Part shown: positions 4,048-33,045 of the stretch, piece by piece
How the letters are laid out: each line of letters starts with the position of its first letter
Position numbering within the stretch: the first letter of the stretch is position 1
From: a virus
Direction: 5' to 3' (one strand)
IMG/VR virus record: IMGVR_UViG_3300042566_000771
Location: 1-33,045 of that record
Length of the DNA: 33,045 nucleotides
Program-made: the position numbers and the translations under genes
Notes under the pieces: model-generated
The model's database searches: none
Told to the model about the DNA's origin: nothing
The model's input: the letters and a program-made list of their open reading frames with translations, nothing else

Positions 4048-7000
4048 ATGGCAACTATTGTTACGCGGTCCGGAAAAGGCTCGCCTCTTACCAATGCTGA
4101 AGTTGATGGCAACTTCACGAATCTGAATACGGAGCTGGGGACAAAGGTTGATGCCTCGTCTCTGGCTACCGTAGCTACCACTGGCGCGTATGCGGACCTT
4201 ACCGGTAAGCCAGCGCTTGGCACAGTTGCTGCGCAAAGTGCAGATGATGTCGCGATTACTGGCGGCGAAATTACCGGCACAACGATGGATAGCATTAGCA
4301 ACCACGTTGGTGCTGACCATATCCACTACAAGGTCAAGGCAAATGAAGTCCTAGCCAAGGGCAATGTGGTTAAGGTTGTCGGCTATAACGCTGGCGAAAA
4401 TGCCTTTGAAGTCGCCAAGGTAACTTCGGCAAGCGACATCGCTGTCGGCGTTGTCTACCAGCCGCTCGTCAGTGGCGCTCTTGGTGCGATCATCAACACC
4501 GGCCTCTTGGAAGGCGTCGACACCTCGGCGTTCAGCGTCGGCACAGTGTTGTACCCAAACACGTCTGGCGGCTTTACCAGCACTAAGCCAACGACGGGCC
4601 GCTATCAGGCATTAGCTTTTGTTGTGCGCTCAAACGCCAACAACGGCACAATCCTGATCGAAGCGTCTGAGCCGCAAGCGACGAGCTTGAGCCAGTTCAC
4701 AAACGACAGCGGCTACATCACTGGCATTACATCTGGCAACGTCACCACAGCCCTTGGCTACACGCCAGCAAACATATCTGGCCCAACCTTTAGCAATGGC
4801 ATAACCGTCAATAACGGCGACAATCAGGTTCAGATTGCTTTTGATGGAAACCTTGAAATTGTTCGGGCTGATGGCAATGGTTATATTGATTTTAAAAATA
4901 CCATTGGCGAAGATTACGATAGCCGCATTCAGCAAATAGGCTCTGGCTTCGCAATGACGGGAACAGTTTCGGCTGGCGATGAGTTTCGCGCACCGATTTT
5001 CCGCGATACACCTAACACTGCATATTTTATCGACCCCGCTGGCACATCAAACATAAGCGGCTTAACACTAGATGGCACATTAGCTGGTGTAACAGGGCGT
5101 TTTGCCAAAAACCAAACCGCTGGAAACTACACCACGGCTGCGCTGTGGACTGAAAGCTATGGGAACACGGCAACTGGCATTGCATTCCACATTAGCGGTG
5201 TAGTCGGCAAATTCCTTGAAATGCGAACTGACGGCATTCTTTATTGGCAAGGAATTCTGAACGCTGATGGCGAACTTCGTGCGCCAATCTTTCGCGATAT
5301 GGACAACAGTGCATATTATGTAGACCCTACTGGCACATCAAACCTTAACAAGTTGACCGCAAGCAATCGATCAATGGTTGGTAACGCAAGCATATTTATG
5401 GATAGCTTGGACGCCAACACATACTATCCAGTTACCATACCTGTGCCTGTTGCACGGCAAACAACGCTTCGCATTGAAAACGCGCTCAATTCGAACGCGC
5501 CGTCATGGTCTACGCATCCATCGGGCTTTTCTTGTTATATCGAATGGACAACTAACGGTCTTGGCTGGGGAACAATTGGCATATCAAGGCGCGTAACTGA
5601 TTGGCGTGAACAATTCAACACCGTTCAGATTGTCGGTGGCATTGACCAGATGACGTTCAGCAGCCAAGAAGTCATTTGGCTTCGCGGTGGCGCTAATTAC
5701 TTTTTCTCCGCCGACTGCGATGTAACGCCTACTGTTCGAACGACCTCATACACATTGAATGGGCAAACTGTTGCTCCGCGCTCATCTCCTTACAACGACC
5801 CTTGGGAAACTGCTCAGGGCAAGATGTCTTACGGGACATTCCAAGCTAATGTTCGCGTTACCGCTGGCACGGATATCCGCGCACCAATCTTTTATGATAG
5901 CCCCAACACTGCGTTTTACGTTGATCCTTCGGAAACATCGCAGCTAAAAACAGTCGAAGCTTCTGGCGGCATCGGTTTCCGCACGTTTTCTAACGGTTCC
6001 GCCAGTATCAACAGCCAGTTTTATTTTGCCAATGCTGCAAACAGCCGTGCGTGGAACTGGCAGCTTGACGAAAACAATGACGCTGCATTGTGGAACTATG
6101 AAGGTTCTTCGTGGAACAAACGCTTTACGTTTACCGCTGGTTCTAATTTTACCGCTGGCGGTATTGTGACGGCCAACGTCGATATTCGCGCACCTATTTT
6201 TCGCGATAGCGTTAATCCAGCCTATTACCTTGACCCAGATAGCAGTTCTGTTTTGGGTGGCGTTTATTCTAACGGACAAGTCCGTGCTACTGGCTGGTGG
6301 GGTTCGCAATCTGCCAGTGCAACAGGGCTTGGTGTTGAGATAGGACAAAACGGTGGGCGCAGTTATGTTCTGTCCTACAACCGCGACATTGCTAACTATG
6401 GGCCAATGTCGTTTGAGGCTACCGACTTTACTTTTACGGGAGTTGGCGGCGGGTTTATTCAAGTCAACACCAGTGTCCGCGCACCCATTTTTTATGATAC
6501 GCCAAACACTGCATTTTACCTCAACCCAGCCGAAACATCTGTTTTAAGCGCCCTTAATGTTAATGGCAGTGCTGTATATCGCAGCGATTGGACAACTCGC
6601 TTTCAATCTGGCAGCGACTTCGTTGACGGCACATTGGTCACAACCGACATTCCTGCGACAGCGTGGGCTGGTGACAGCTTTGTCATTGAGATCACTGGCA
6701 AGACCTACGACCAGAACAACCCACCAGTTAAGGTGGTGGCGCAAGGCTATTTGTATAACGACACCATCATCAACTACAGCGGCATCTCGTATGCAGGAAA
6801 CTTCGCGTCCTACATAAAGGTCTTTGAAGAAGGTGGCGTTCTGAAGTTCTGGTGGCCGCGTATAAGCTACTGGAACTCATTTAACGTGAACGTGATGGGC
6901 ATGGATGGCCCAAGCAACAACACGATCACGCGCAATCGCGTTACGGCTATCAGCAACTCGACTGAGCCTACTGGAACCAAGAAGCAGCAGATCAACCTTA

Positions 7001-9009
7001 CAAAGACGCTGAAGACGGGTGATGCCGCAGGATCAATCAGCGGTTTCAATAACCCTACAACAGCGCCTACCGCAAACACGATTGTTTATCGTGATGGAAT
7101 TGGTGACATTGCCGCCCGTGAAATCATCCTTAGTTCGGGTCTTTCGACCGCCACGCCTACTGTTTTGGTTTCGATGTTTCCAACCACGAACCAGATGGTT
7201 CGCACAACGCCAACGGCTGTTGCGGCGGCAATACAGGGCGCAGCTTCTGGCACTTGGAATATAAGGTCGGCTGACCTTAACCAAGCACGATACGCAAACA
7301 CTGACTTTAATACGCTTGGGGCAACACCCGAAGTGTTTAGGGCTTATTCAAATTACATTCCTTCTGGTGGCTCATACAATCAGCCGCCAAACGGCGCTGG
7401 TGACTACAAGGTTATTCAGTGGGGCGGTATAGAGGGCGTTGCAGGAAACTGGGGCGGTCAAATTGTCCAAAACTTCTACGATGACCGTATGTGGTTCCGC
7501 AGAAGCTTTGGCACTACATGGCAAGCATGGCGTGAATTTATCCATGACGGCAATTACACCAACTACGCAATGCCAACGGGTTCATTGGCTACCAATACCG
7601 TTGAGGTTCGCGCACCTATCTTCCGTGACAACATTAACACTGGTTATTTTATTGACCCTGACGGCAATTCAAACCTTAGCCAATTGATGACAACGGGTGC
7701 TGTAGTTATTGGCGGCAACTTTACGAACAATGGCTACAATTCCGTAGGAAGCACTCGCCTTTTATTCGGCGGCGGTAATGAACCCGATACCTATTTCATA
7801 GGCACAAACCTTGAAAACTATGGCGGGAATTACACCAAGCTAGATTTGCGGTGGCACACTGGCATCCGCATGGGGGCAAGGCCAAACTACGGCGGCATAC
7901 GTTTCTATAATGATGAAACCCTCGCAACGCAGATTTTTGCAATAGGCAAGGATGGTAGTTACGCACAAGCAAACCAAAGTATGCGTGCGCCTATCTTTCA
8001 AGATTTAGACAACACTGCTTATTTTATAAATCCAAACGACAGTCAATCTATCCGCACAGTAGGAGATTGGAGAGCAGATAGCAGCGCGTGGACAGGTGAG
8101 TTTGCAGGTAAAATTCAATACCATGCTAACAATTGGTATTTTCAGGCCGCAAATCAGTGGGAGTTCCGCAGGTCGGATAGCGCAAACGCATTTTCTGTAT
8201 CTCAGGCAGGTGTAGTGATTGCCCTTGGCGATATGCGTGCGCCAATATTTTACGATAGCCCCAACACTGGCTTCTTCGTTGACCCTTCATCTACGTCCAA
8301 CATAAGCGGATTGTCTGTTGGTAACCGCATAACTGGAAGCATCAGCGGTGACGCACAGCGACTATTTAACCACACAGGCGCAAACAACGATGGCCTTCAA
8401 TTCTGGAACACCGTAGGCAATTCAACGCTCAATCCAAACACGGGTTGGCACTATGCCCTTCGTTTGGCGCATGGTGACGCTGATACATACTACAACGCAA
8501 CTTTGGCTGTCGATTTTTTCGCAGACAATGTTTACCTTCGTCGCAAGACGGGTGGAAGTGACCAACCGTGGAAGCGGTTTGCGCTTTACGATAATGTTTA
8601 CGAAGCTATTTTTTACGCAAGCTCTTTTAGCGATGCAAACAACACTGCCTTTTATCTCGACCCCAACAGCACAGGCACATCGCTTAACGTAGCGGGTTCA
8701 ATCGTAGCTGCTGGTAACGTCACTGCGTATTCCGACATCCGCATCAAAGCGAACGTCGAGACAATCCCAAGCGCATTGGACAAGCTTGACCAGATACGGG
8801 GCGTTACATACACCCGCACAGATCTCGATGACAAAGAGCAGCGTTACGCTGGTGTCATCGCACAAGAAATAGAGAAAGTTTTGCCAGAGGCTGTGCGCGA
8901 CCTTGGCAATATCAAAGCAGTCGATTACAACGCCACCATCGGCTTGTTAATTCAAGCTGTAAAAGAATTGCGCGACGAAGTAGAGGCGATGAAGTCTCGT
9001 TTACATTGA
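4048..9009 (+). CDS. Giant tail fibre/spike with C-terminal peptidase S74 chaperone
   Basis: 1,653 residues. The start (ATIVTRSGKGSPLTNAEVDG, NFTNLNTEL) is a common fibre N-terminus. Eight copies of a module with consensus RAPIF-x-D-x-x-N-T-A-Y-F-x-D-P, followed by T-S-x-L, begin at residues 314, 411, 611, 714, 811, 1188, 1313 and 1397; a ninth degenerate copy lies near 1519. Copies separate variable segments, suggesting interchangeable domains along the shaft. The C-terminus is an S74 intramolecular chaperone: Ser1562-Asp in the SDIRIK motif, the GVTYTR strand, YAGVIAQEIEKVLPEAV, and a final coiled helix. S74 domains trimerise fibres and cut themselves off before that Ser, which would release about 92 residues. 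Codon style in much of 4800-8650 is more AT-rich than flanking genes, hinting at exchange of receptor-binding modules. Confidence 0.88.
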   Translation: MATIVTRSGKGSPLTNAEVDGNFTNLNTELGTKVDASSLATVATTGAYADLTGKPALGTVAAQSADDVAITGGEITGTTMDSISNHVGADHIHYKVKANEVLAKGNVVKVVGYNAGENAFEVAKVTSASDIAVGVVYQPLVSGALGAIINTGLLEGVDTSAFSVGTVLYPNTSGGFTSTKPTTGRYQALAFVVRSNANNGTILIEASEPQATSLSQFTNDSGYITGITSGNVTTALGYTPANISGPTFSNGITVNNGDNQVQIAFDGNLEIVRADGNGYIDFKNTIGEDYDSRIQQIGSGFAMTGTVSAGDEFRAPIFRDTPNTAYFIDPAGTSNISGLTLDGTLAGVTGRFAKNQTAGNYTTAALWTESYGNTATGIAFHISGVVGKFLEMRTDGILYWQGILNADGELRAPIFRDMDNSAYYVDPTGTSNLNKLTASNRSMVGNASIFMDSLDANTYYPVTIPVPVARQTTLRIENALNSNAPSWSTHPSGFSCYIEWTTNGLGWGTIGISRRVTDWREQFNTVQIVGGIDQMTFSSQEVIWLRGGANYFFSADCDVTPTVRTTSYTLNGQTVAPRSSPYNDPWETAQGKMSYGTFQANVRVTAGTDIRAPIFYDSPNTAFYVDPSETSQLKTVEASGGIGFRTFSNGSASINSQFYFANAANSRAWNWQLDENNDAALWNYEGSSWNKRFTFTAGSNFTAGGIVTANVDIRAPIFRDSVNPAYYLDPDSSSVLGGVYSNGQVRATGWWGSQSASATGLGVEIGQNGGRSYVLSYNRDIANYGPMSFEATDFTFTGVGGGFIQVNTSVRAPIFYDTPNTAFYLNPAETSVLSALNVNGSAVYRSDWTTRFQSGSDFVDGTLVTTDIPATAWAGDSFVIEITGKTYDQNNPPVKVVAQGYLYNDTIINYSGISYAGNFASYIKVFEEGGVLKFWWPRISYWNSFNVNVMGMDGPSNNTITRNRVTAISNSTEPTGTKKQQINLTKTLKTGDAAGSISGFNNPTTAPTANTIVYRDGIGDIAAREIILSSGLSTATPTVLVSMFPTTNQMVRTTPTAVAAAIQGAASGTWNIRSADLNQARYANTDFNTLGATPEVFRAYSNYIPSGGSYNQPPNGAGDYKVIQWGGIEGVAGNWGGQIVQNFYDDRMWFRRSFGTTWQAWREFIHDGNYTNYAMPTGSLATNTVEVRAPIFRDNINTGYFIDPDGNSNLSQLMTTGAVVIGGNFTNNGYNSVGSTRLLFGGGNEPDTYFIGTNLENYGGNYTKLDLRWHTGIRMGARPNYGGIRFYNDETLATQIFAIGKDGSYAQANQSMRAPIFQDLDNTAYFINPNDSQSIRTVGDWRADSSAWTGEFAGKIQYHANNWYFQAANQWEFRRSDSANAFSVSQAGVVIALGDMRAPIFYDSPNTGFFVDPSSTSNISGLSVGNRITGSISGDAQRLFNHTGANNDGLQFWNTVGNSTLNPNTGWHYALRLAHGDADTYYNATLAVDFFADNVYLRRKTGGSDQPWKRFALYDNVYEAIFYASSFSDANNTAFYLDPNSTGTSLNVAGSIVAAGNVTAYSDIRIKANVETIPSALDKLDQIRGVTYTRTDLDDKEQRYAGVIAQEIEKVLPEAVRDLGNIKAVDYNATIGLLIQAVKELRDEVEAMKSRLH

Positions 9010-19148: not shown

Positions 19149-22100
19149 ATGTCTGAAGATAATAATAGACTACGATTTGCCCGTACACGCTGGGAGGATT
19201 TGGGTAAAACCACCACTCAGAGTTCATCGCCTAGTCAGCAAGGTACGCAGCGGCCTGCAAGTAATCCAAAATGGCAGGCAGAGCTTAAAGCCGCAGACCG
19301 TGAGATTGAAGCTCTGAGAACACGTCTTCGGGCAGGTGAGTTCAAAGGCAGAGAAGCCGCTTTTGCTGCGGAGTCTTTGAATGGACTCAATGAGCGGCGC
19401 AAGGACATCACCGCCAAGATCAACGCTGGACGCGAAATAAAAACCACCGTTGGCGATGTTGGTCGCGAAATTGTTAATGCGCCGTTTCGTGGCACAACCG
19501 GCGCGATACTAGGTGGCGTTGCAGGTGTCGCCGACTATGCTGGCCTAGACGAGTCTGCTGAGTCTGTTCGCGCATATCGGGACGATGTCCTTAAAAATTA
19601 TGCTGCGCCAGAGTCGGCTTCACAAAATCGTTTTCTGCGTTACGGCGGAATGGCCGGTGAAGCACTTGGCTCTACAGTTCCTTATCTCGCAGGTGGCGTA
19701 CCTTCTGTTGCTGTACGCGCAGGCGTTGGCGCTTTGGCTTTTGGTGGCGGCGTTGATCAGCAAGATGCGCGTGTCAAGCAGGCGCGTGAGCAGGGGCTTA
19801 CAGTTTCCTCTGGTCAGGAAGTGCTTGCCGAAACATTTGGCGGCGTTGTCGGTCTTTCCGAACTTCTACCAGTTAAGGGTCTACTTTCCCGAGTTCCAAA
19901 TGGCTACGGTCAAAAAGTTGTCGAGATGGTTGGTCAACGATTTGCCTCCACAGCAGTTGGTAGGGCAATGGCTCAGGGCGGCAAGAGAGCTGTTGGCAGA
20001 GTTGCTGGTAGCGCAATTGAAGAGGGTGTTCAGGAGGCTGCTGCGGGTGTTGCCCAAGACCTTATTGAGCTTGGCGTCTACAACGAAAATGTAGACGTTG
20101 GTCAGTCGGCTCTACAGGACTTTGCGCTTGGCGGCTTTGTTGGCGGTGCAATCAGAGGTGGTAGAGAAGCTGTTGGTCGCTACCGTGGCGAGGACATGAA
20201 CGGCGCTCCAGCTACGCCCCCACAAACAAACACAGACCAAGAGCTTCTTGACGCACTTACAGCACGCGGTCAAACAGCCGGTCAGACCACCCTTCGCCTT
20301 GAAGGTCCGAGCGCGTCCGATCTGGCTGGCATGGATAATATCTCCGCTGGCGGAATGAACTACACGCCAACACAGATCCTAGAGTTCGCGGCTAACAACC
20401 AGAATAATCCACGCATCGCCGACATCATGTCGCAGCCAGTTGGTGATGAGACTAAGGTTCAGCAGGTAGCTCGCATCCTTAATCAGGAAGAGGCGTCTCG
20501 AGTAGAGCCCGAAGCCGTTCGCCGTATCTCTGGAATGTTTGGCGGCACCAACTCTGTCAGCGGTTCGAAGCAGATGATTGCCGACGAGCTTGCAAAGATT
20601 AGCCCAGCCGTCATTGCTGAGAGTCCAACTCTTTCAGCTATAGCCCAGTCGCTAGAGTCGACTGGTAAACAGTTCGTCAGCGGCTTGCGTAACGCCGTTA
20701 GCAATTATCAGCCAGCTACACAGCAAAACCAGACGTTTGTTGCCCGTCCGTTTGTAACGACACAAGAAGCGGCAGACGGCAATCGTGAGATCGTAGCTGA
20801 CGGCAGCGTAGTCATGACGCCGGACCAAGTTTCCGGCGAAGCACAGCGCTTGCGGGAGACTGAGCAGTCATTCCGAATGGCTGATGCGCGTCAAGGGCGG
20901 TATGACAAAGCCACGAGCGAAGGCGCTCAGCGTGAAGATCTTCGCGCAGGTGCTCCTGATCCTACCCCACAGTTTTTTCTTAACCCCGAATACTACGGCG
21001 AAGATCTTGGCGGAATTGCGGCAACGATTGTCGGCGCTGAAGGCGGGAAAGTTAACATTCAGTATGAGCAGCAAGCTCAAGATGGGTCCGTTCAGACTGT
21101 ATCTGAGCAAGTAGATCCGTCTACTTTATTCGCTCGCCTCGTAAGAGAAACGCCCCGTCTGTCACAGGATCTGGCTGGTGATCTGCGTAAGCCAAAGGCT
21201 GGCGTCGGAACAGGCATGAACCCACGTCGGTCTGTTGACCGTACTCAGTCACGCTCTGTCGTTCCGTTTCAAGAAGATGCCCCAGCTCCTCCAGAGCAGC
21301 AGGCGCAGAACGCGCAGGTCAATCCCCAGATAGAGCGTGCGCCAAACGTAGAGGGCAACGTAGAGGGTCCGAACGAAATTAGTGGTCCACCTGCCCAGCT
21401 CCAAGCTCCAGCACAGAAGGCTTTGCCAGCTCCAGATCAGGAAACGGCACCAGCTCCAGAAGCCAAGGAAGAAACGCCTGCTGAAGATGAGGCGGCTAAG
21501 GTTGAAAAGCACGTTGAGAATATCGAGGACAAGATCCTTAACGACGACCGCAATGGTGTTGTTCGCTACGCCGCCAAGGTTCACAAGGAAGGTCTTATCG
21601 ACGACGCAGACCTTGCTGAGATCAAGCGCATGTCCAAAGACAAGGACATGGGGGCGGAGGATATTGGCCCAGAGCTTATCAGCCAGCTCAATACCAAGCA
21701 GGGTGATGGTGATACTCGTTACTCTGGCCGAGCCTCTAAGCGCAAGAAGCGCACATACGCTACTGGTGCGTCTACGACGGCAACGCAAACCGACACCAAA
21801 GCTGAGTCACAAGCTGAAACACAGGCTGAGCCGACCACCGAAGAACGGACCATTCGTCCCGAAAACACGGACAACAACATTGACGATGTTGGTCGCGGGG
21901 TCACTAAAGCCAGCGACACCGTAGCGCGTAACCCAACTCCGCGTAAGGATGAAGCTGCCAAGGGTGACGAAAAGAAGATCGATCACGAAGCGGTTATTGA
22001 AGACCGTCTAAACAAGATTGCTTCTCGTGGACGCCAAGGTCGGATTATCGCCAATCGCCTGCGATCAATCATGAAGCAGGGCGGCTACAACCCAAAGCAG

Positions 22101-25100
22101 TTTTACTATGCCTTTGCTGCAGGCGATGTCATGTCGCGTGTATTGCCGAAAAATGCCAGCGTCGATATTCTTTTTGTCCCATCACTTAAAACTACAAACG
22201 AAGCGGCTGCTGCCGCAAGCGGCATTGAACTTGGCGCTGAGAATACAGGCAATTATGAGATCTACGATGTAAGCCAGAACGGAATGAATGGCCTTATCAC
22301 GCTGTCACTAAGCGAAGATCTTGCAGCCTACACTCGCGAAAGCGCCGCGCATGAGGCGTTCCACGTTATCCAAGACATGCTAGAGGTCTACGACCCGCAA
22401 GCATTCGATATGCTCAATAACGTGTTCGAAGATGGGATGACCGTCAAGCAATTCGACGCAAGCATCTTGCGCGTTTTAAAAGCGACGGACATGGGCAACG
22501 GCATCAGCTTTTATGATGACCTAGTTGCAAACTTCGGCGATAAGCCACTTGCTTTCTATGAAGCGCAGGCCGTTGCGTTTGGCGCTTTGGTCAATGCCAA
22601 GGAAAGCGGTTCTCCGATGCGTGGTCTTAAGGCTACCCTTGCTCGCATTGTCGACATGATCGAGCGCTTCCGTCGCGAGTTTGGCAACCTTCTCCGCAAC
22701 GATAACGTAACAACATTGGCGGACTACTTCGAAGGCTACCGCAGCGGGAAAACACAAGAGTACCTAGATGATGTGGCTGCACCCACCAAGCTTACAAAGG
22801 AAATTGCTGGACTAGAGGGATCAGAAAGATACTCTGGTCGTAAGAAAGACAGCGCCACAGGCGAGTTCAAGAAGAACATCAAAGCATCTAAGCTTTCCGC
22901 TGATGAGCTATTTGCTCAGCCAGACGTTAAGCAAGGGACGATGGGTGTCACCGAAGCGGCCATTGAAATCCAGAAGCGCACGCTTTCTATTCTTGGCAGG
23001 CCCATCACTGCAGCCGGTCAGAAGGATGACCTTCTTGCACAGACCGTAGCCCATGAGGTGAAGTCTGAGCTAGCACGTTCCGGCAAGCGCAACGCTTCTG
23101 GCTGGTACACAGAGGAGATGCGCAAAGCCACTGCTGTTGCCTCCATGATCCACCCTGAGATCTCTACTGATGTAGGCGCTCAACTGCACTTTACTGCAGC
23201 TCTTGCTATTACTTCGCAGAATCAATCTGTCGATGCCAACGCTGTGTTTGCTGAGCGCTGGTACGAGTATTACAAGAAGAACGGCAAGTTCCCTGAGAAC
23301 GAGGGTTGGGGTAAAGCTGCATCCTCGATTATGTCCAATGCCAAGCTCTTCAACTCAATCGTTGAAAAGTATGGTGCTGAGGCAGTCTCGAAGTTCTTCG
23401 CCACCAAGTTCACAGTCCGCGAGCTGCGTGCTGCTGGCTTTAACAATGTGTCCGGCGCATCCGAAGAAATGGTCTACGGTAGCGCAGTGCTTGGTCCAAA
23501 GATTGGCTTTGGCTTCTACTCAAACCTCAATGGTCGCTACGATCCAGTAACCATAGACATGTGGTTTATGCGGACGTGGGGCCGCATGACCGGTGACCTT
23601 ATTGGTGCCGATCCTGAGCTTATCCAACAGCAAGAAGAGCGCCTTACTAAAGCGCTGGCTGATGACGGTCGTCCTACAAACGCATACGGACCAGAGCTTC
23701 TTGAGGTTGCACAGGCTGAGTCTAAGGCCTTTGAGAAAGACTTTAAGGTTAACCGCGCCGCCTACGACAACGGAGAGAAGGTTAAGCCAGAGACCGCGCT
23801 GGCTGCGCAGCGCCTTCTTGCCAGCTTTGAAGACACAAAGGATGCACCGAAGGCTGATTGGCAGCGCACTTGGATACGAGATATTGTTGCTAAGTCGCAA
23901 CAGATCTTGCAAGGCGATGGTATTAACATTACCAATGCTGATCTTCAGGCCGTGCTCTGGTATCCAGAAAAGAGGTTGTGGTCTAAGAAGTTTGGTGTAC
24001 GGGAAAAGGGCAAAGGCGCAGACGATGCGGGTAGCGCTGGCGAAACCAGCTACTACGACGAGTTCGTTCGCATTGCCAAGAAGCGAGGATTTACCGATGA
24101 GCAAATCAGTACCGCCGTTCAACCCAAGGGGGGACGGGGACAAGGATCAGGAAGAGTTCTGGGCGGAGAAGCCGTCAATCAAAACGCTGACGGACAATCT
24201 GGGGCCGCTAATGAATTCGCGCCCAGAGACGCCAGACGCTTCATCCAAGATTCAGTCGTTACCAGACTCAATAAAGAGTTCCCCATTCTTGATGGCGCTG
24301 GGTCAGCAACTTCTGGAAGACCATCCGAACATGTCAGCAGAAAAGTTGGCGGAAACCTTGCGCGGAGCGTAGAGGGCCGCACACCTGTAGTCGCTACATA
24401 CAGCCACTCAGTAAAAGTAAAGAACGCACTTGCTGTAGCTGGTGTTGATGCTCCTAAGTTCCTTGAGCTGACCAACGGCCCAGCTTCGGCCAAGCTGTAT
24501 CATCGACTTATCTCTGAAGCGCAGAAGGCCAATAAGGCTGGCGCTGCAGTCTACGTCTACGATAAGAAAGATTACGCCGACATGCGCCTGTTCCTCACTG
24601 AGGACGGGCTCACTGGCTTTGCCCTCAAGGGCGACGATCTTGTGTCGGTGTTCAAGCACCCATCGTCAGAAACTAGGGGTGTCGCTATCCCTCTCGCACG
24701 TATGGCGGTGTGGCTAGGCGCTCGCCGGTTGGACGCATACGACACCGTCCTCCCTTATTTGTACTCAACGGCTGGCTTCAAAGTCGCGGCGAGGATGAAG
24801 TGGGACAATGAACAGGCACCAAAAATCTGGGACAAGACTGAGTTCTCCGCCTTCAATAACGGCGAGCCAGATGTTGTCTTCATGTACCACGATCCCGCAC
24901 GCAGCGACTTCTATACGAAGGGCGAGGGCGAGTACTTCGACCAGTACGATGACGCCGTGGCAGCTCAATCGGGCAAGGCTGGTAACGTCCAGTACTCTGG
25001 CCGCACAAGTCGTGCTGTCTACACACCAGAGCGCACCGAAAAAATAATCAGCGCTATGGCAGAGGGCAAGAATGAGTCCAAGGGCTGGATGACATTCATG

Positions 25101-28100
25101 TCCCCAGACGAATTCCTTGGTCTAACTTTGTCCAAGTCTGGGCGCGACATTCTTGCAACAATGGACCCCACCAAGACCCGTGCTCGTCCGCTTAATATTG
25201 AAGAGCTTAGGCAGGTAGGCGAACCACTGTTCCTTACCGTTAGGGAAGCCGGTGAAATCAGTGAGGTTCAGCGGCAGCTAGGCGTCACGTCTCTTCCTTG
25301 GCAGGTGATGGGGCATGAAGGCCGTCACCGCATGGCAGCATTTAAAGATGCTGGCATAGAACAAATCCCTGTCGTTCTTATGCGACAGAACGGAGTGGCT
25401 CAGCTCGAAGACATTGCCAACATATCTCTTGCGCCGCAGCGCGGTGGTCGTAGCGACCAGTACAACAGCGGCGACACCAGTATAGATGTCGGCGAAGCTG
25501 TGCCTATCAGCAACGACAACGCTGACCGCATCAGAGGCATGATGACCGGTGAAGGCGTTCGCTTCTCTGGCCGTCGTGCGCGAAACACTGACGGTGTGTC
25601 TCAGTCCATGATGGATAAAGTCGTTTCTGAAGAGCCAAATGTAGGCGTCTTCGGAAAGTTCTTTGATAATATGGTTGGGCGTATCGGAAATGAAAGCCGC
25701 CGCAGAGCACTTGTTCGCAACGTCGTAAACGACAAAGATAGCGCGTTTGTCCTCGACAAAATGCTAGACGCTGCGCTTCGTGGTGTAGACCCTGCGGATG
25801 GGCGTGTTGCTGTAGACGGCTCGAGCGTTGGCCGAATGATGGAGATGGCTTCTCAGTCCACTGGCGTAGTACAGGGGGCGTTGGAGCTTGGCCCTCCTGT
25901 ATTCGACGGCGAGATAACCACTTTCAGTGATGATATCAGCGGTCTGTTTGATATCTTTTCGCCTATTGGTGAAGAGCGAGCCGGTGCCTTTCAAACATAT
26001 GCTGTCGCTCGTCGCGAAAGCGATTTGCGCAGGAAGGGCAGGATTGGCTTCACCGAAGTTACCGACGCAGAAATTGCGGAGACCTTGCGCAACGCTGACG
26101 CAGATTTTGCTGAGGTCTTTGACGCCTATCAGGAATTCAACGGCGCGATCATCGACTACGCTGTAGACACCGGCCTTCTAACAGAAGAGCTGGGTGATAC
26201 GCTGAAGGGTATGGATTACGTACCTTACTATCGTGCCGTTGAGCAGGATGACGGCGAGCTTGATGTGCTTGGCCCCAAGATGCAGGCCGCAATGAATAAC
26301 CCCAAGTCAGCCCTCGACCTGAAGCTGAAGGGTGGCAGCACGGGTCTTGGGAACCTCTATGAAAACATGATCCGCAATACGCAGTCTATCATTGGTGCGG
26401 CTCGCAAGAACCTCGCCTTACAAGAGGCTGCTGACGCTATTGATGCCTTGAACGATCTTGGTGTCGATGACATTGGTCGTCGTGTTAATACTCCCGATGG
26501 AGAGGGCATTATGCGCCTTCGCGTCGATGGTAAGCCGGTCTATTACCAGATAGAAGACCCCGCTGTATGGGCGACCATTGCTTCCCTTGGTCCTCAGCAG
26601 ATGAACATCGTCGTGGAGGCTTTCTCCAAATTCGCAAATGTTCTTCGGACGAGTGTGACACTCGCCCCATCCTTCATGATCGCCAACTTGTGGCGAGGAA
26701 AGATAAGCACCTATGTCACAACCGACGCGAAGCTGACTCTTGGTATCGATACTTTCAAGGGCATGAAGGACGCATACCAGAACGGAGAAACCACAAAGAT
26801 CATCAAAGCCAACACGGGCATTGGTGGCTACGCTTACGGTATGGGTGAAAGGGACTTCGCTAATGAAATCCGCAGGCGTTACCGTAGACAAGAGGGTGGT
26901 GGCTACGGCTTTACTCGTGACTGGTTGGACCGCCTCAAGGGTGGTTTGGTCGCGGCAGAAAGAGTGGGTGAGGCGACGGAACTTGCTGAGCGCGTGAAGC
27001 TGTACAACGACGTCGTTGCGAATGGCGGAAGCCCGAAGACGGCGGCGTATGAAGCCATGAACCTGACTAACTTTGGCCGCAAGGGCGCAGGTCAGGGATA
27101 CGTAGGGGCCACGATGAAAGTGTTGATCCCAATGATCCCGTTCCTCAATGCCCGTATTCAAGGCTTGTACCGCATTGCCGAAAACCAGCAGAACGAACCC
27201 ACCATTATGGGTCTGCGTAAAAAGGTATTGCTGCGCGGCATGCTTTACACACTGGCTTCGTCCGCCATCTACGCAATGTTTAGCGATGATGACCGCTGGG
27301 AGGAAGAAACTGTCGAGAACAAGATGCTCTACGACATCATGTATGTAGGCGACAAGACAATCTATCTGCCCCGTCCGTTCGAAGTAGGAACGATATTTGG
27401 ATCTATGCCCGTAGCTCTCTATGATTACGCTCGTGATCAAGATGGGGGAGAAGCTTCGGATAAGTTGGTCTTCGCCTTCACAAACACGTTCGCTATGAAC
27501 CCAATCCCGCAGGGTGTTAAGCCAACGCTGGAAGCATTTGTGAACTACAGCTTCTTCAGAGGCGGACCAATCGATACGATGGCAGACCAGAACCTACCGG
27601 CTGGCATGCGCTATGACGAGAGGACAAGCGAGACAGCCAAGGCAATTGGCGGTGCTGCTGGTGTATCTCCGAAGAAGGTTGACTACGTCCTGAACGGCTA
27701 CTTAGGCACTATGGGCGCTGGCTTTATCAGTGGTGTTGACTCTGTCCTTTCAGGCGTAGGAGTCATCCCAAAGAAAGCCGGTGGCCTATTCGGTGACCCT
27801 TACCACATTGGGGATACAATCGCATCAGCCAGTGGCCTCACTCGCTTTGTAAAAGACAGCGACCGCACCACAAGTCGGTTTGTCAGTGACTTCTATGAGC
27901 TTAAGAGGGAGGCTGATCAAGCTAACAGAGCTCACAAGAAGCTGATCGAAGAGGGGCGCAGGGAAGAGGCTCTTGAGTATGCTGAGGAAAACAAGTTCCC
28001 TCTGCAAGCTCGCAAGCAGCTTGGAAAGCTCAGCAAAGATATCTCTAAGGTCAACAACGATATCGACGAGGTCGAAGTCGACCCGAAGCTAACCCCTGCG

Positions 28101-28220
28101 GAGAAGCAGCTTAAGCTAAGGCCTCTGCTGCGCAAGCGCAAAGATCTAGCGCGGAGAGGGTATGACTATGCTCGTGGAGCTCGAGTAGTCTTACCCGTCG
28201 AGGAAGAGGTTGAGGAATAA
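19149..28220 (+). CDS. Giant polyvalent virion protein, 3,023 residues (metallopeptidase-, GNAT-, ParB- and LPD38-like parts)
   Basis: Domains seen in order. Residues 1-110 are charged helix; 115-345 are Gly/Ala-rich, amphipathic and possibly membrane-active. A Pro/Gln/Glu-rich linker covers about 710-940. About 950-1225 is metallopeptidase-like, with H1068-E-A-F-H1072 and a possible third ligand E1138. 1230-1660 is a conserved-looking helical region (MWFMRTWGRMTGDL). 1658-1742 is a linker that overlaps a second reading frame. 1745-1945 is GNAT-like (GARRLDAYDT, LYSTAGFKVAAR). About 1955-2105 is ParB-like with G2055HEGRHR2061. About 2490-2990 matches the LPD38 type of phage polyvalent protein (FANVLRTSVTLAPSFMIANL, PMIPFLNARIQGLYR). 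Short R/Q-Y/F-S-G-R motifs at 857, 1227, 1948 and 2138 fall between the parts. Such proteins are injected with DNA; individual activities here are unproven. Confidence 0.85.
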   Translation: MSEDNNRLRFARTRWEDLGKTTTQSSSPSQQGTQRPASNPKWQAELKAADREIEALRTRLRAGEFKGREAAFAAESLNGLNERRKDITAKINAGREIKTTVGDVGREIVNAPFRGTTGAILGGVAGVADYAGLDESAESVRAYRDDVLKNYAAPESASQNRFLRYGGMAGEALGSTVPYLAGGVPSVAVRAGVGALAFGGGVDQQDARVKQAREQGLTVSSGQEVLAETFGGVVGLSELLPVKGLLSRVPNGYGQKVVEMVGQRFASTAVGRAMAQGGKRAVGRVAGSAIEEGVQEAAAGVAQDLIELGVYNENVDVGQSALQDFALGGFVGGAIRGGREAVGRYRGEDMNGAPATPPQTNTDQELLDALTARGQTAGQTTLRLEGPSASDLAGMDNISAGGMNYTPTQILEFAANNQNNPRIADIMSQPVGDETKVQQVARILNQEEASRVEPEAVRRISGMFGGTNSVSGSKQMIADELAKISPAVIAESPTLSAIAQSLESTGKQFVSGLRNAVSNYQPATQQNQTFVARPFVTTQEAADGNREIVADGSVVMTPDQVSGEAQRLRETEQSFRMADARQGRYDKATSEGAQREDLRAGAPDPTPQFFLNPEYYGEDLGGIAATIVGAEGGKVNIQYEQQAQDGSVQTVSEQVDPSTLFARLVRETPRLSQDLAGDLRKPKAGVGTGMNPRRSVDRTQSRSVVPFQEDAPAPPEQQAQNAQVNPQIERAPNVEGNVEGPNEISGPPAQLQAPAQKALPAPDQETAPAPEAKEETPAEDEAAKVEKHVENIEDKILNDDRNGVVRYAAKVHKEGLIDDADLAEIKRMSKDKDMGAEDIGPELISQLNTKQGDGDTRYSGRASKRKKRTYATGASTTATQTDTKAESQAETQAEPTTEERTIRPENTDNNIDDVGRGVTKASDTVARNPTPRKDEAAKGDEKKIDHEAVIEDRLNKIASRGRQGRIIANRLRSIMKQGGYNPKQFYYAFAAGDVMSRVLPKNASVDILFVPSLKTTNEAAAAASGIELGAENTGNYEIYDVSQNGMNGLITLSLSEDLAAYTRESAAHEAFHVIQDMLEVYDPQAFDMLNNVFEDGMTVKQFDASILRVLKATDMGNGISFYDDLVANFGDKPLAFYEAQAVAFGALVNAKESGSPMRGLKATLARIVDMIERFRREFGNLLRNDNVTTLADYFEGYRSGKTQEYLDDVAAPTKLTKEIAGLEGSERYSGRKKDSATGEFKKNIKASKLSADELFAQPDVKQGTMGVTEAAIEIQKRTLSILGRPITAAGQKDDLLAQTVAHEVKSELARSGKRNASGWYTEEMRKATAVASMIHPEISTDVGAQLHFTAALAITSQNQSVDANAVFAERWYEYYKKNGKFPENEGWGKAASSIMSNAKLFNSIVEKYGAEAVSKFFATKFTVRELRAAGFNNVSGASEEMVYGSAVLGPKIGFGFYSNLNGRYDPVTIDMWFMRTWGRMTGDLIGADPELIQQQEERLTKALADDGRPTNAYGPELLEVAQAESKAFEKDFKVNRAAYDNGEKVKPETALAAQRLLASFEDTKDAPKADWQRTWIRDIVAKSQQILQGDGINITNADLQAVLWYPEKRLWSKKFGVREKGKGADDAGSAGETSYYDEFVRIAKKRGFTDEQISTAVQPKGGRGQGSGRVLGGEAVNQNADGQSGAANEFAPRDARRFIQDSVVTRLNKEFPILDGAGSATSGRPSEHVSRKVGGNLARSVEGRTPVVATYSHSVKVKNALAVAGVDAPKFLELTNGPASAKLYHRLISEAQKANKAGAAVYVYDKKDYADMRLFLTEDGLTGFALKGDDLVSVFKHPSSETRGVAIPLARMAVWLGARRLDAYDTVLPYLYSTAGFKVAARMKWDNEQAPKIWDKTEFSAFNNGEPDVVFMYHDPARSDFYTKGEGEYFDQYDDAVAAQSGKAGNVQYSGRTSRAVYTPERTEKIISAMAEGKNESKGWMTFMSPDEFLGLTLSKSGRDILATMDPTKTRARPLNIEELRQVGEPLFLTVREAGEISEVQRQLGVTSLPWQVMGHEGRHRMAAFKDAGIEQIPVVLMRQNGVAQLEDIANISLAPQRGGRSDQYNSGDTSIDVGEAVPISNDNADRIRGMMTGEGVRFSGRRARNTDGVSQSMMDKVVSEEPNVGVFGKFFDNMVGRIGNESRRRALVRNVVNDKDSAFVLDKMLDAALRGVDPADGRVAVDGSSVGRMMEMASQSTGVVQGALELGPPVFDGEITTFSDDISGLFDIFSPIGEERAGAFQTYAVARRESDLRRKGRIGFTEVTDAEIAETLRNADADFAEVFDAYQEFNGAIIDYAVDTGLLTEELGDTLKGMDYVPYYRAVEQDDGELDVLGPKMQAAMNNPKSALDLKLKGGSTGLGNLYENMIRNTQSIIGAARKNLALQEAADAIDALNDLGVDDIGRRVNTPDGEGIMRLRVDGKPVYYQIEDPAVWATIASLGPQQMNIVVEAFSKFANVLRTSVTLAPSFMIANLWRGKISTYVTTDAKLTLGIDTFKGMKDAYQNGETTKIIKANTGIGGYAYGMGERDFANEIRRRYRRQEGGGYGFTRDWLDRLKGGLVAAERVGEATELAERVKLYNDVVANGGSPKTAAYEAMNLTNFGRKGAGQGYVGATMKVLIPMIPFLNARIQGLYRIAENQQNEPTIMGLRKKVLLRGMLYTLASSAIYAMFSDDDRWEEETVENKMLYDIMYVGDKTIYLPRPFEVGTIFGSMPVALYDYARDQDGGEASDKLVFAFTNTFAMNPIPQGVKPTLEAFVNYSFFRGGPIDTMADQNLPAGMRYDERTSETAKAIGGAAGVSPKKVDYVLNGYLGTMGAGFISGVDSVLSGVGVIPKKAGGLFGDPYHIGDTIASASGLTRFVKDSDRTTSRFVSDFYELKREADQANRAHKKLIEEGRREEALEYAEENKFPLQARKQLGKLSKDISKVNNDIDEVEVDPKLTPAEKQLKLRPLLRKRKDLARRGYDYARGARVVLPVEEEVEE
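24097..24372 (+). CDS. Candidate nested gene inside the giant gene, 91 residues
   Basis: In the +1 frame relative to the giant gene, an ATG at 24097 has a GAGGA site seven bases upstream and opens 91 residues ending in TAG. The product looks protein-like: acidic start with DGDKDQEEFWAEKPSIKTL, a Ser/Pro linker, then an amphipathic end (SPFLMALGQQLLEDHPNMS, AEKLAETLRGA). Over the same bases the giant frame is a Gly/Arg-rich linker with six AGA codons and frequent GGA and CAA, as expected when another frame is the better coded one. The frame is open for about 500 bases further upstream, so openness alone is not evidence. Function unknown; a chance ORF remains possible. Confidence 0.5.
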   Translation: MSKSVPPFNPRGDGDKDQEEFWAEKPSIKTLTDNLGPLMNSRPETPDASSKIQSLPDSIKSSPFLMALGQQLLEDHPNMSAEKLAETLRGA

Positions 28221-32131: not shown

Positions 32132-32160
32132 TTGCGCAATTCGAAAAGCGGAAATATGTA
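32132..32160 (+). promoter_or_regulatory. Rightward promoter for the replication gene
   Basis: TTGCGC, 17 bases, TATGTA. The predicted start at about 32167 coincides with the first base pair of the structured leader. Match to consensus is moderate. Confidence 0.5.
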
Positions 32161-32165
32161 CAGCA

Positions 32166-32300
32166 TGTGACGGCTACCGTATCGCGACGGGAACCGACCA
32201 ATGTTCGCTTGTGCGAAACCTCCAAATTTCGCATTGGTCCTGCCGTCACAGTTTTAAGCGAACACACAGGAGCGGTTAAGGACCGCAGAGTTGGAGGTTT
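32166..32300 (+). ncRNA. Structured leader of the replication gene with anti-Shine-Dalgarno
   Basis: Five complementary sets are present: TGTGACGGC (32166-32174) with 32242-32250; GACCAATG (32196-32203) with 32232-32239; TGTTCGCTT (32202-32210) with 32256-32264; AAACCTCCAA (32216-32225) with the ribosome site TTGGAGGTTT (32291-32300); and a small hairpin GCGGT/ACCGC (32272-32286). The first two nest as one long stem whose loop carries the anti-Shine-Dalgarno. The third competes with the second. This suggests switchable translation of the replication protein. Folding is by eye only. Confidence 0.6.
32251..32279 (-). promoter_or_regulatory. Possible antisense promoter in the leader
   Basis: On the minus strand TTAACC, 17 bases, TAAAAC. 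The predicted antisense transcript would start at the same TGTGACGGC stem and cover the anti-Shine-Dalgarno loop. Each hexamer matches four of six consensus bases, so this is tentative. Confidence 0.3.
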
Positions 32301-32303
32301 TAA

Positions 32304-33045
32304 ATGTCACATGAGTTGGGCGGGTACGTCCTTATCTACCGCCGTCTATTGGATCACTCGATCTTTCGCACTGATGCGGAGGCTATGGCCTTTGCATGGA
32401 TGGTGCTGCGAGCATCGTGGAGAGAAGTAGATGTGCGCTACAAAGATCGCCCCATAAAACTGCAGCGTGGGCAGCTTGCGATGTCAGTACGGGACATGGC
32501 TACGCACCTAGAACGCAGCAAAGATTGGGCAAATCGCTTTCTCACGCGCCTCGTTGACCGCGACATGGTGTGCGTCGATAGCGCGACAGGTGTCACCATC
32601 ATTTCTATCAACAATTACAACGCTTTCCAGCTCGATCCTAAAGGGCAGAGCGACAGGTCCGCGACAGCGGCGCGACAGGACCGCGACACCACCGCGACAC
32701 AGAACAATAAAGGGAATAAAGAGAAAGAAGAGAATAAAGGGAATAGTAAGAAGGCTGACGCCTTCTCTGTGCCTGATTGGATTGATGCGGATGCATGGTC
32801 GGATTGGGAAGAGCAGCGCAAGCAGATCAAGAAACCTCTGACGGATCAGGCGCGGAAGCTAGCGATCAACGTCCTACGTGAAGGCGTAGAGGCAGGGCTG
32901 TCGGTTCGCCAGATCATCGACCACAACATCAATGGTGGCTGGCAAGGAATGTTCCTACCGAAGGGAAATGCCAAAGCCGCAACAAGCCCAATGGCTGGCA
33001 TGTCTTTCAAGCAGGCACGCGAGAAGCTAGACGATCTTCGCTACA
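32304..33045 (+). CDS. Phage replication initiator (lambda O/DnaD-DnaT-like), 3' end outside window
   Basis: At least 247 residues, frame open to the right edge. GGAGG lies six bases before the ATG. The N-terminal winged-helix region has the usual phage pattern: GGYVLIYRRLLDHSIFRTDA, then IKLQRGQLAMSVRDMATHLE, then SKDWANRFLTRLVDRDMV and NNYNAFQL. A low-complexity Arg/Asp/Thr then Lys/Glu/Asn linker (about 115-150) is where the DNA repeats lie. The C-terminal part (DWIDADAWSDWEEQRKQI, KPLTDQARKLAIN, DHNINGGWQGMFLP) resembles DnaT/DnaD-type replication proteins that load the host helicase. It is the first rightward early gene; a helicase loader may follow outside the window. Confidence 0.8.
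   Translation, partial: MSHELGGYVLIYRRLLDHSIFRTDAEAMAFAWMVLRASWREVDVRYKDRPIKLQRGQLAMSVRDMATHLERSKDWANRFLTRLVDRDMVCVDSATGVTIISINNYNAFQLDPKGQSDRSATAARQDRDTTATQNNKGNKEKEENKGNSKKADAFSVPDWIDADAWSDWEEQRKQIKKPLTDQARKLAINVLREGVEAGLSVRQIIDHNINGGWQGMFLPKGNAKAATSPMAGMSFKQAREKLDDLRY
32650..32704 (+). repeat. Five iteron-like direct repeats, 11-bp period
   Basis: GCGACA occurs at 32650, 32661, 32672, 32683 and 32694, exactly 11 bp apart; the consensus is GCGACAGGNCC with decay in the last copies. A sixth GCGACAGG is at 32583. Eleven is not a multiple of three, so the motif is read in all three codon phases, pointing to selection on DNA. Spacing near one helical turn would place bound proteins on one face. 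Confidence 0.8.
32701..32752 (+). other. Purine-rich AT tract, candidate unwinding element of the origin
   Basis: Directly after the iterons, 52 bases are almost all A and G with a few T and one C. AATAAAGGGAATA occurs twice (32706-32718 and 32733-32745). A purine-skewed, easily melted tract next to iterons inside the initiator gene is the layout of lambda ori. Confidence 0.65.

Follow-up and report, generated by a model that had tools for sequence, protein, structure and literature searches.

The DNA analysed here, called the window below, is a virus record of 33,045 nt from IMG/VR, and the feature under study, at 32166-32300, is the leader of its replication initiator gene (rep). We propose, with a probability of roughly two in three, that this leader encodes a compact antisense RNA of three stems (32166-32250) and that rep is repressed by it, most likely in trans. 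The sequence supports an RNA fold with covariation, two target contacts that co-vary with their antisense segments, and an exchange of specificities; repression, action in trans and a role in immunity are what we infer for the RNA. An earlier note on this DNA had described a regulatory, switch-like leader. Conservation and target covariation back its anti-Shine-Dalgarno pairing, but a switch acting in cis, while possible, is not the best-supported reading.

The rep gene is the last of the window and runs past its end; the ribosome-site target ends four bases upstream of its ATG at 32304, and in relatives a primase-helicase gene comes after it. It is divergent from the genes for a Sak annealing protein and a YqaJ exonuclease, with an integrase gene further on, and the three-stem RNA sits between the divergent Sak gene and rep, not between integrase and alpA. 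A transcript start at 32167, as predicted before, is plausible: the promoter-like element upstream of it (Table 1) is largely conserved in relatives L002-L013, but it is weak by the E. coli consensus and absent from the promoter scanner's list. No cI/Cro-type HTH_3 protein was detected in the window and six related records of up to 58 kb, possibly incomplete; an Arc-like protein is encoded, and there may be repressors of types other than cI/Cro HTH_3. Elsewhere, the structural region of the window holds a single ORF of 3023 aa (19149-28220), matched in size by an ORF in each of the relatives G003, G005 and G001, and a probable tail-fibre ORF of 1653 aa (4048-9009) carries many repeats of the RAPIFRDxxNTAYFxDP type. 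In relative L263 there are genes for an anti-restriction protein of the ArdC type and for a protein resembling B12-dependent ribonucleotide reductase (4111-5082 and 6736-8733).

Table 1. Features of the leader and of the gene that it precedes (positions in the window)
Feature	Position	Strand	Description
Promoter-like element	32132-32160	+	TTGCGC 32132-32137, 17-nt spacer, TATGTA 32155-32160
Three-stem RNA core	32166-32250	+	P1 = 32166-32174 with 32242-32250; predicted fold z -4.7; P1 covariation
P2 hairpin	32177-32190	+	CCGT-ATCGCG-ACGG; predicted fold; two pairs changed on both sides in L045
P3	32196-32239	+	32196-32204 with 32231-32239; hairpin 32205-32216; 14-nt unpaired bulge 32217-32230
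Antisense segment a'	32202-32210	+	TGTTCGCTT; 9/9 complement of 32256-32264; co-varies with target, versions A-E
Antisense segment b' (anti-Shine-Dalgarno)	32216-32225	+	AAACCTCCAA; 10/10 complement of 32291-32300
Target site a	32256-32264	+	AAGCGAACA; just 3' of P1; AAGCGAAC kept in close relatives
Small hairpin between the two targets	32272-32286	+	GCGGT-TAAGG-ACCGC; kept in version A with U-A to U-G
Target site b, Shine-Dalgarno region	32291-32300	+	TTGGAGGTTT; TGGAGG kept in relatives
rep, replication initiator / DnaD-like helicase loader	32304-33044	+	phrog_678 (E 1e-22), phrog_2514; putative target gene

The predicted core combines P1 (9 bp), P2 (4 bp) and P3 (9 bp, including one U-G pair), and its energy of -35.7 kcal/mol compares with -21.5 ± 3.0 kcal/mol for shuffled sequences. 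Both parts of the long stem described before, 9 bp and 8 bp, proved exact (32166-32174 with 32242-32250, 9/9; 32196-32203 with 32232-32239, 8/8), while P2 and the hairpin within P3 were absent from that description. The claim that so many complementarities are not expected by chance was confirmed with 1000 dinucleotide shuffles of the 135 nt: none reached the eight 8-nt complements observed and one reached the four 9-nt complements, a 10-nt complement being present in 11. The anti-Shine-Dalgarno match is likewise exact over its 10 nt, as it was in 2 of 20,000 shuffles of the upstream stretch. It had been placed in the loop region of the stem; it does lie inside P3, but mostly in the single-stranded bulge and not in a plain loop. 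The further 9-bp pairing (32202-32210 with 32256-32264) is also exact, but instead of competing with the inner stem it looks like a second antisense contact, a'/a. Both antisense segments are within P3, with a' in the hairpin preceding b'; the first matches a site immediately downstream of the RNA, the second the ribosome site of the gene that follows. Rfam scans of the window, at gathering and at permissive settings (111 nt, E<=10), returned no relevant family, riboswitch or leader, and a DNA search of phage records gave no match.

The leader is present in front of rep in 14 relatives, and in the 12 viral contigs whose Rep is 88-100% identical the core is nearly invariant. Among these close relatives P3 occurs as GACCAATG/CATTGGTC, GGCCAATG/CATTGGCC and GGCTAATG/CATTAGCC, with two pairs altered on both sides and so compensatory, and the spacer between the two targets has suffered indels, yet AAGCGAAC and TGGAGG are unchanged. 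The same RNA is found in L044 and L045, whose Rep is 58-60% identical; among 24 stem pairs, assigned by hand between the window and such a relative, 15 are the same, one is changed on one side, eight on both sides, and none is broken. P1 covaries against L045 as well as over versions A-E (below), so that a search for covariation across related phages, which the earlier note had named as a check, finds compensatory changes in P1, P2 and P3. Within version A, that of the window, there is hardly any variation in the a'/a and b'/b pairs, and support for these two contacts therefore depends on versions B-E. No convincing copy was seen in viral contigs with more distant Rep relatives (<=53% identity) and three sphingomonad-type genomes, and a scan for a pattern that fixed a GACGGC stem and a TTCGC hairpin gave mostly unrelated matches. 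Distant DnaD-like Rep relatives (L176, L180, L181, L210 and L221; also L179, L215, L219 and L224) have another leader, without an Rfam match, some 250-330 nt ahead of the Rep match, with Bacteroidota-type promoters (TAnnTTTG) and followed by a small ORF and then rep. This leader contains an apparent H-type pseudoknot (in L180, for example, GTTAC..GTAAC flanks GGTCTCAC, whose partner is GTGAGACC) and also a segment, for example AAACCCTACAA, that complements TTGTAGGGTTTTTTTT, which may be a terminator or an antisense target.

Further versions of the RNA were found by searching with the primase-helicase downstream of rep and with the scaffold motif. Version A pairs a' GTTCGCTT with a AAGCGAAC and b' AAACCTCCAA with the Shine-Dalgarno TTGGAGGTTT. 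Version B (L044, L045) has a'/a GTTCGCCCAA/TTGGGCGAAC, a b' contact of about 5-6 pairs including G-U, and no small hairpin between the targets. Version C (L270, L272, L283, L274, L280) has GTTTGCCT/AGGCAAAC and, for b'/Shine-Dalgarno, CCTTTCAA/TTGAAAGG, the Shine-Dalgarno of L274 and L280 being one base off. Version D (L278) has GTCTGCTGGT/ACCAGCAGAC and a weaker b' contact of 5-6 pairs with G-U, and version E (L340) has GCGCTCTA/TAGAGCGC and CCTCGTCG/CGACGAGG; the cognate b'/Shine-Dalgarno pairs of versions C and E differ from that of the window. In all five versions a replication initiator or helicase-loader gene lies downstream (in B by homology to the Rep of the window). Because the versions came from sequence searches, comparisons among them are partly post hoc; with that limit, the longest cognate a' match is 9, 10, 8 and 10 nt in A-D against at most 7 nt for non-cognate pairs, and when both segments are scored over A-E the true assignment (71) is the best of 120 permutations, the next scoring 58. 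The short b'/b contacts of versions B and D count against an antisense function.

The versions also appear to change hands. L270 shares about 97% identity with L008 in the sequence preceding the RNA and again in the primase, yet the two have different RNAs and rep genes, and the same kind of break separates L280 from L005 and L274 from L012; L280 and L270 share an RNA version and have different rep genes. Drawn from a handful of contigs, this joint exchange of RNA and rep resembles the swapping of immunity specificities.

The antisense reading would work as follows. In the bulge of P3, b' would pair with the Shine-Dalgarno of rep, and a' in the P3 hairpin with the specificity site just past the RNA, so that ribosomes would be blocked from starting rep and the primase-helicase operon would stay off. 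Processing or termination would split the RNA from a longer transcript, and the freed RNA would most likely act in trans on new rep messengers; a resident phage could in this way hold down its own replication and that of like phages. Precedents for such a model are the C4 RNA, which acts on ant in P1 and P7, and the CI RNA of the P4 replication operon. Two considerations favour action in trans: the analogy to C4, and an antisense domain that is both closed and exchangeable.

The alternative that survives best, which we consider unlikely though worth keeping in view, is a leader acting in cis, in which the segments would pair within one transcript and hide or free the Shine-Dalgarno, perhaps under the control of Rep, a host factor or the speed of transcription. 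RNA and target are adjacent in every contig read. In folds of the growing transcript the three-stem core is the minimum-energy structure up to 32300, and once the start codon region is included, in a transcript to 32330, a cis fold with b' paired to b is predicted to be preferred (-55.0 kcal/mol versus -49.9 with the core enforced), which counts against the trans part of our proposal; pairing in cis and in trans are hence both possible. Against the cis reading, the trans-acting C4 RNA is likewise built as a closed three-stem antisense domain whose specificity contact is separate (PMC5320573), and a match to an Rfam riboswitch or leader family is absent. Far less probable still are inverted repeats that serve as DNA-level signals, in an origin of replication or an operator, or alternatively a riboswitch that senses a ligand. 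Inverted repeats do adjoin a replication initiator gene here, but the compensatory changes track RNA pairing and the locus showed no direct repeats (iterons), two grounds on which the origin or operator reading was dropped; in addition, the targets co-vary with the antisense segments, 28-67 nt separate the repeat arms, and no known riboswitch family matches.

A wider setting for the antisense RNA is suggested by the int-alpA family (RF02996). At its gathering score of 35.8 bits, and even in the permissive scan, the int-alpA model leaves the window copy undetected; the sister versions score 33.4, 32.2, 31.2, 27.6 and 21.9 bits, and L340 scores 33.0. All of these lie under the gathering score, although the E-values in the search of phage records were 3.3e-6 to 7.9e-8 per record. 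Our own covariance model R1, built from 19 compact int-alpA RNAs, missed the window, L044/L045 and C4, and for this reason we do not claim formal int-alpA membership. The Rfam cut-off is passed by 18 of the 22 phage records tested and by matches in 50 of 398 genomes sampled from the phylum. At the 30 int-alpA genomic loci that we read, the P3 loop complements a site a few nt past P1 and the Shine-Dalgarno of the next ORF. For 29 of these genomic loci the longest complement averages 6.0 at site a and 5.5 at the Shine-Dalgarno, compared with 4.28 ± 0.31 and 4.06 ± 0.28 when loops are permuted; for 41 phage loci the values are 6.12 (site a) and 5.56 (site b), compared with 4.21 ± 0.17 and 4.87 ± 0.14 for permuted pairs. 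Genomic members often stand 10-20 nt past an integrase-like ORF (translations inspected), and phage members stand before replication genes, HNH and GIY-YIG endonucleases, a serine recombinase and a VapE/primase protein. In L330, L334, L338, L374, L381, L391 and L392, compact int-alpA RNAs lie right before homing-endonuclease-like genes (HNH, NUMOD4, GIY-YIG) or a serine recombinase, and their loops match the Shine-Dalgarno of these genes or nearby sites.

In the literature searched, to which the original description did not belong, int-alpA is named in one list and we found no statement of its function; an antisense mechanism for the family seems to be unreported there. We tentatively suggest, at somewhat less than even odds, that RNAs of the int-alpA type form a wide class of portable antisense brakes, directed at the Shine-Dalgarno and placed before 'selfish' DNA genes (those for replication initiators, homing endonucleases and recombinases, and integrase-linked genes), and that the extended two-segment subtype confers immunity at the RNA level, its specificities being swapped as cassettes among near-identical phages in which no cI/Cro-type repressor was detected. 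Our results offer the family a concrete, testable mechanism, backed by co-varying targets, together with a subtype by which temperate phages probably set the expression of a replication gene and which, without a protein repressor, may determine what phages exclude one another; the naturally matched antisense/target pairs make compensatory-mutation tests direct.

Among known systems, riboswitches and cis-acting anti-Shine-Dalgarno leaders share with the window RNA an anti-Shine-Dalgarno in a 5' leader and mutually exclusive folds, but it matches no known aptamer family, and whereas a riboswitch conserves its ligand core while the surroundings vary, here it is the matched antisense/target pairs that vary between relatives. 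With int-alpA RNAs it shares the P1-P2-P3 arrangement, the UA after the 5' arm of P1 (32175-32176), the GAA after P2 (32191-32193), the UG before the 3' arm of P1 (32241-32242), and complementarity of a segment in P3 with a site immediately past P1 as well as with the Shine-Dalgarno of the following gene. It differs in that the sister versions fall 2-14 bits under the int-alpA threshold, P3 is about 25-30 nt longer, two separate antisense segments replace the one loop that serves both sites, and the RNA precedes a replication gene instead of lying between integrase and alpA. The C4 covariance model (RF01695) finds no match in the window, while the same search gives 68.8 bits for P1 c4 and 74.9 for the P4 CI RNA, which by this model is a C4 member. 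Like them, the window RNA is a short three-stem RNA just upstream of its target in the same direction, with target a a few nt past the RNA and target b at the ribosome site; in P1 the 77-nt c4 RNA is followed by a 3-nt gap, target a2, and then b2 before icd. C4 acts in trans, its b' covering the ribosome site and its a' providing specificity (PMC5320573), and explains the heteroimmunity of P1 and P7 (PMC12197685); the P4 RNA likewise guards a replication operon (PMC5320573). Unlike C4, whose P1 stem has 17 bp, the window RNA has a P1 of 9 bp, its putative target is a replication initiator and not ant/icd, and a' precedes b' with both in P3, whereas C4 has b' in the P3 loop and a' in the following junction; because this order is opposite to that of C4, the two contacts cannot form one continuous antiparallel duplex, a point against the antisense reading. 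Formally a member of neither family, the window RNA is by analogy best described as one that would work like C4 on an int-alpA-like scaffold.
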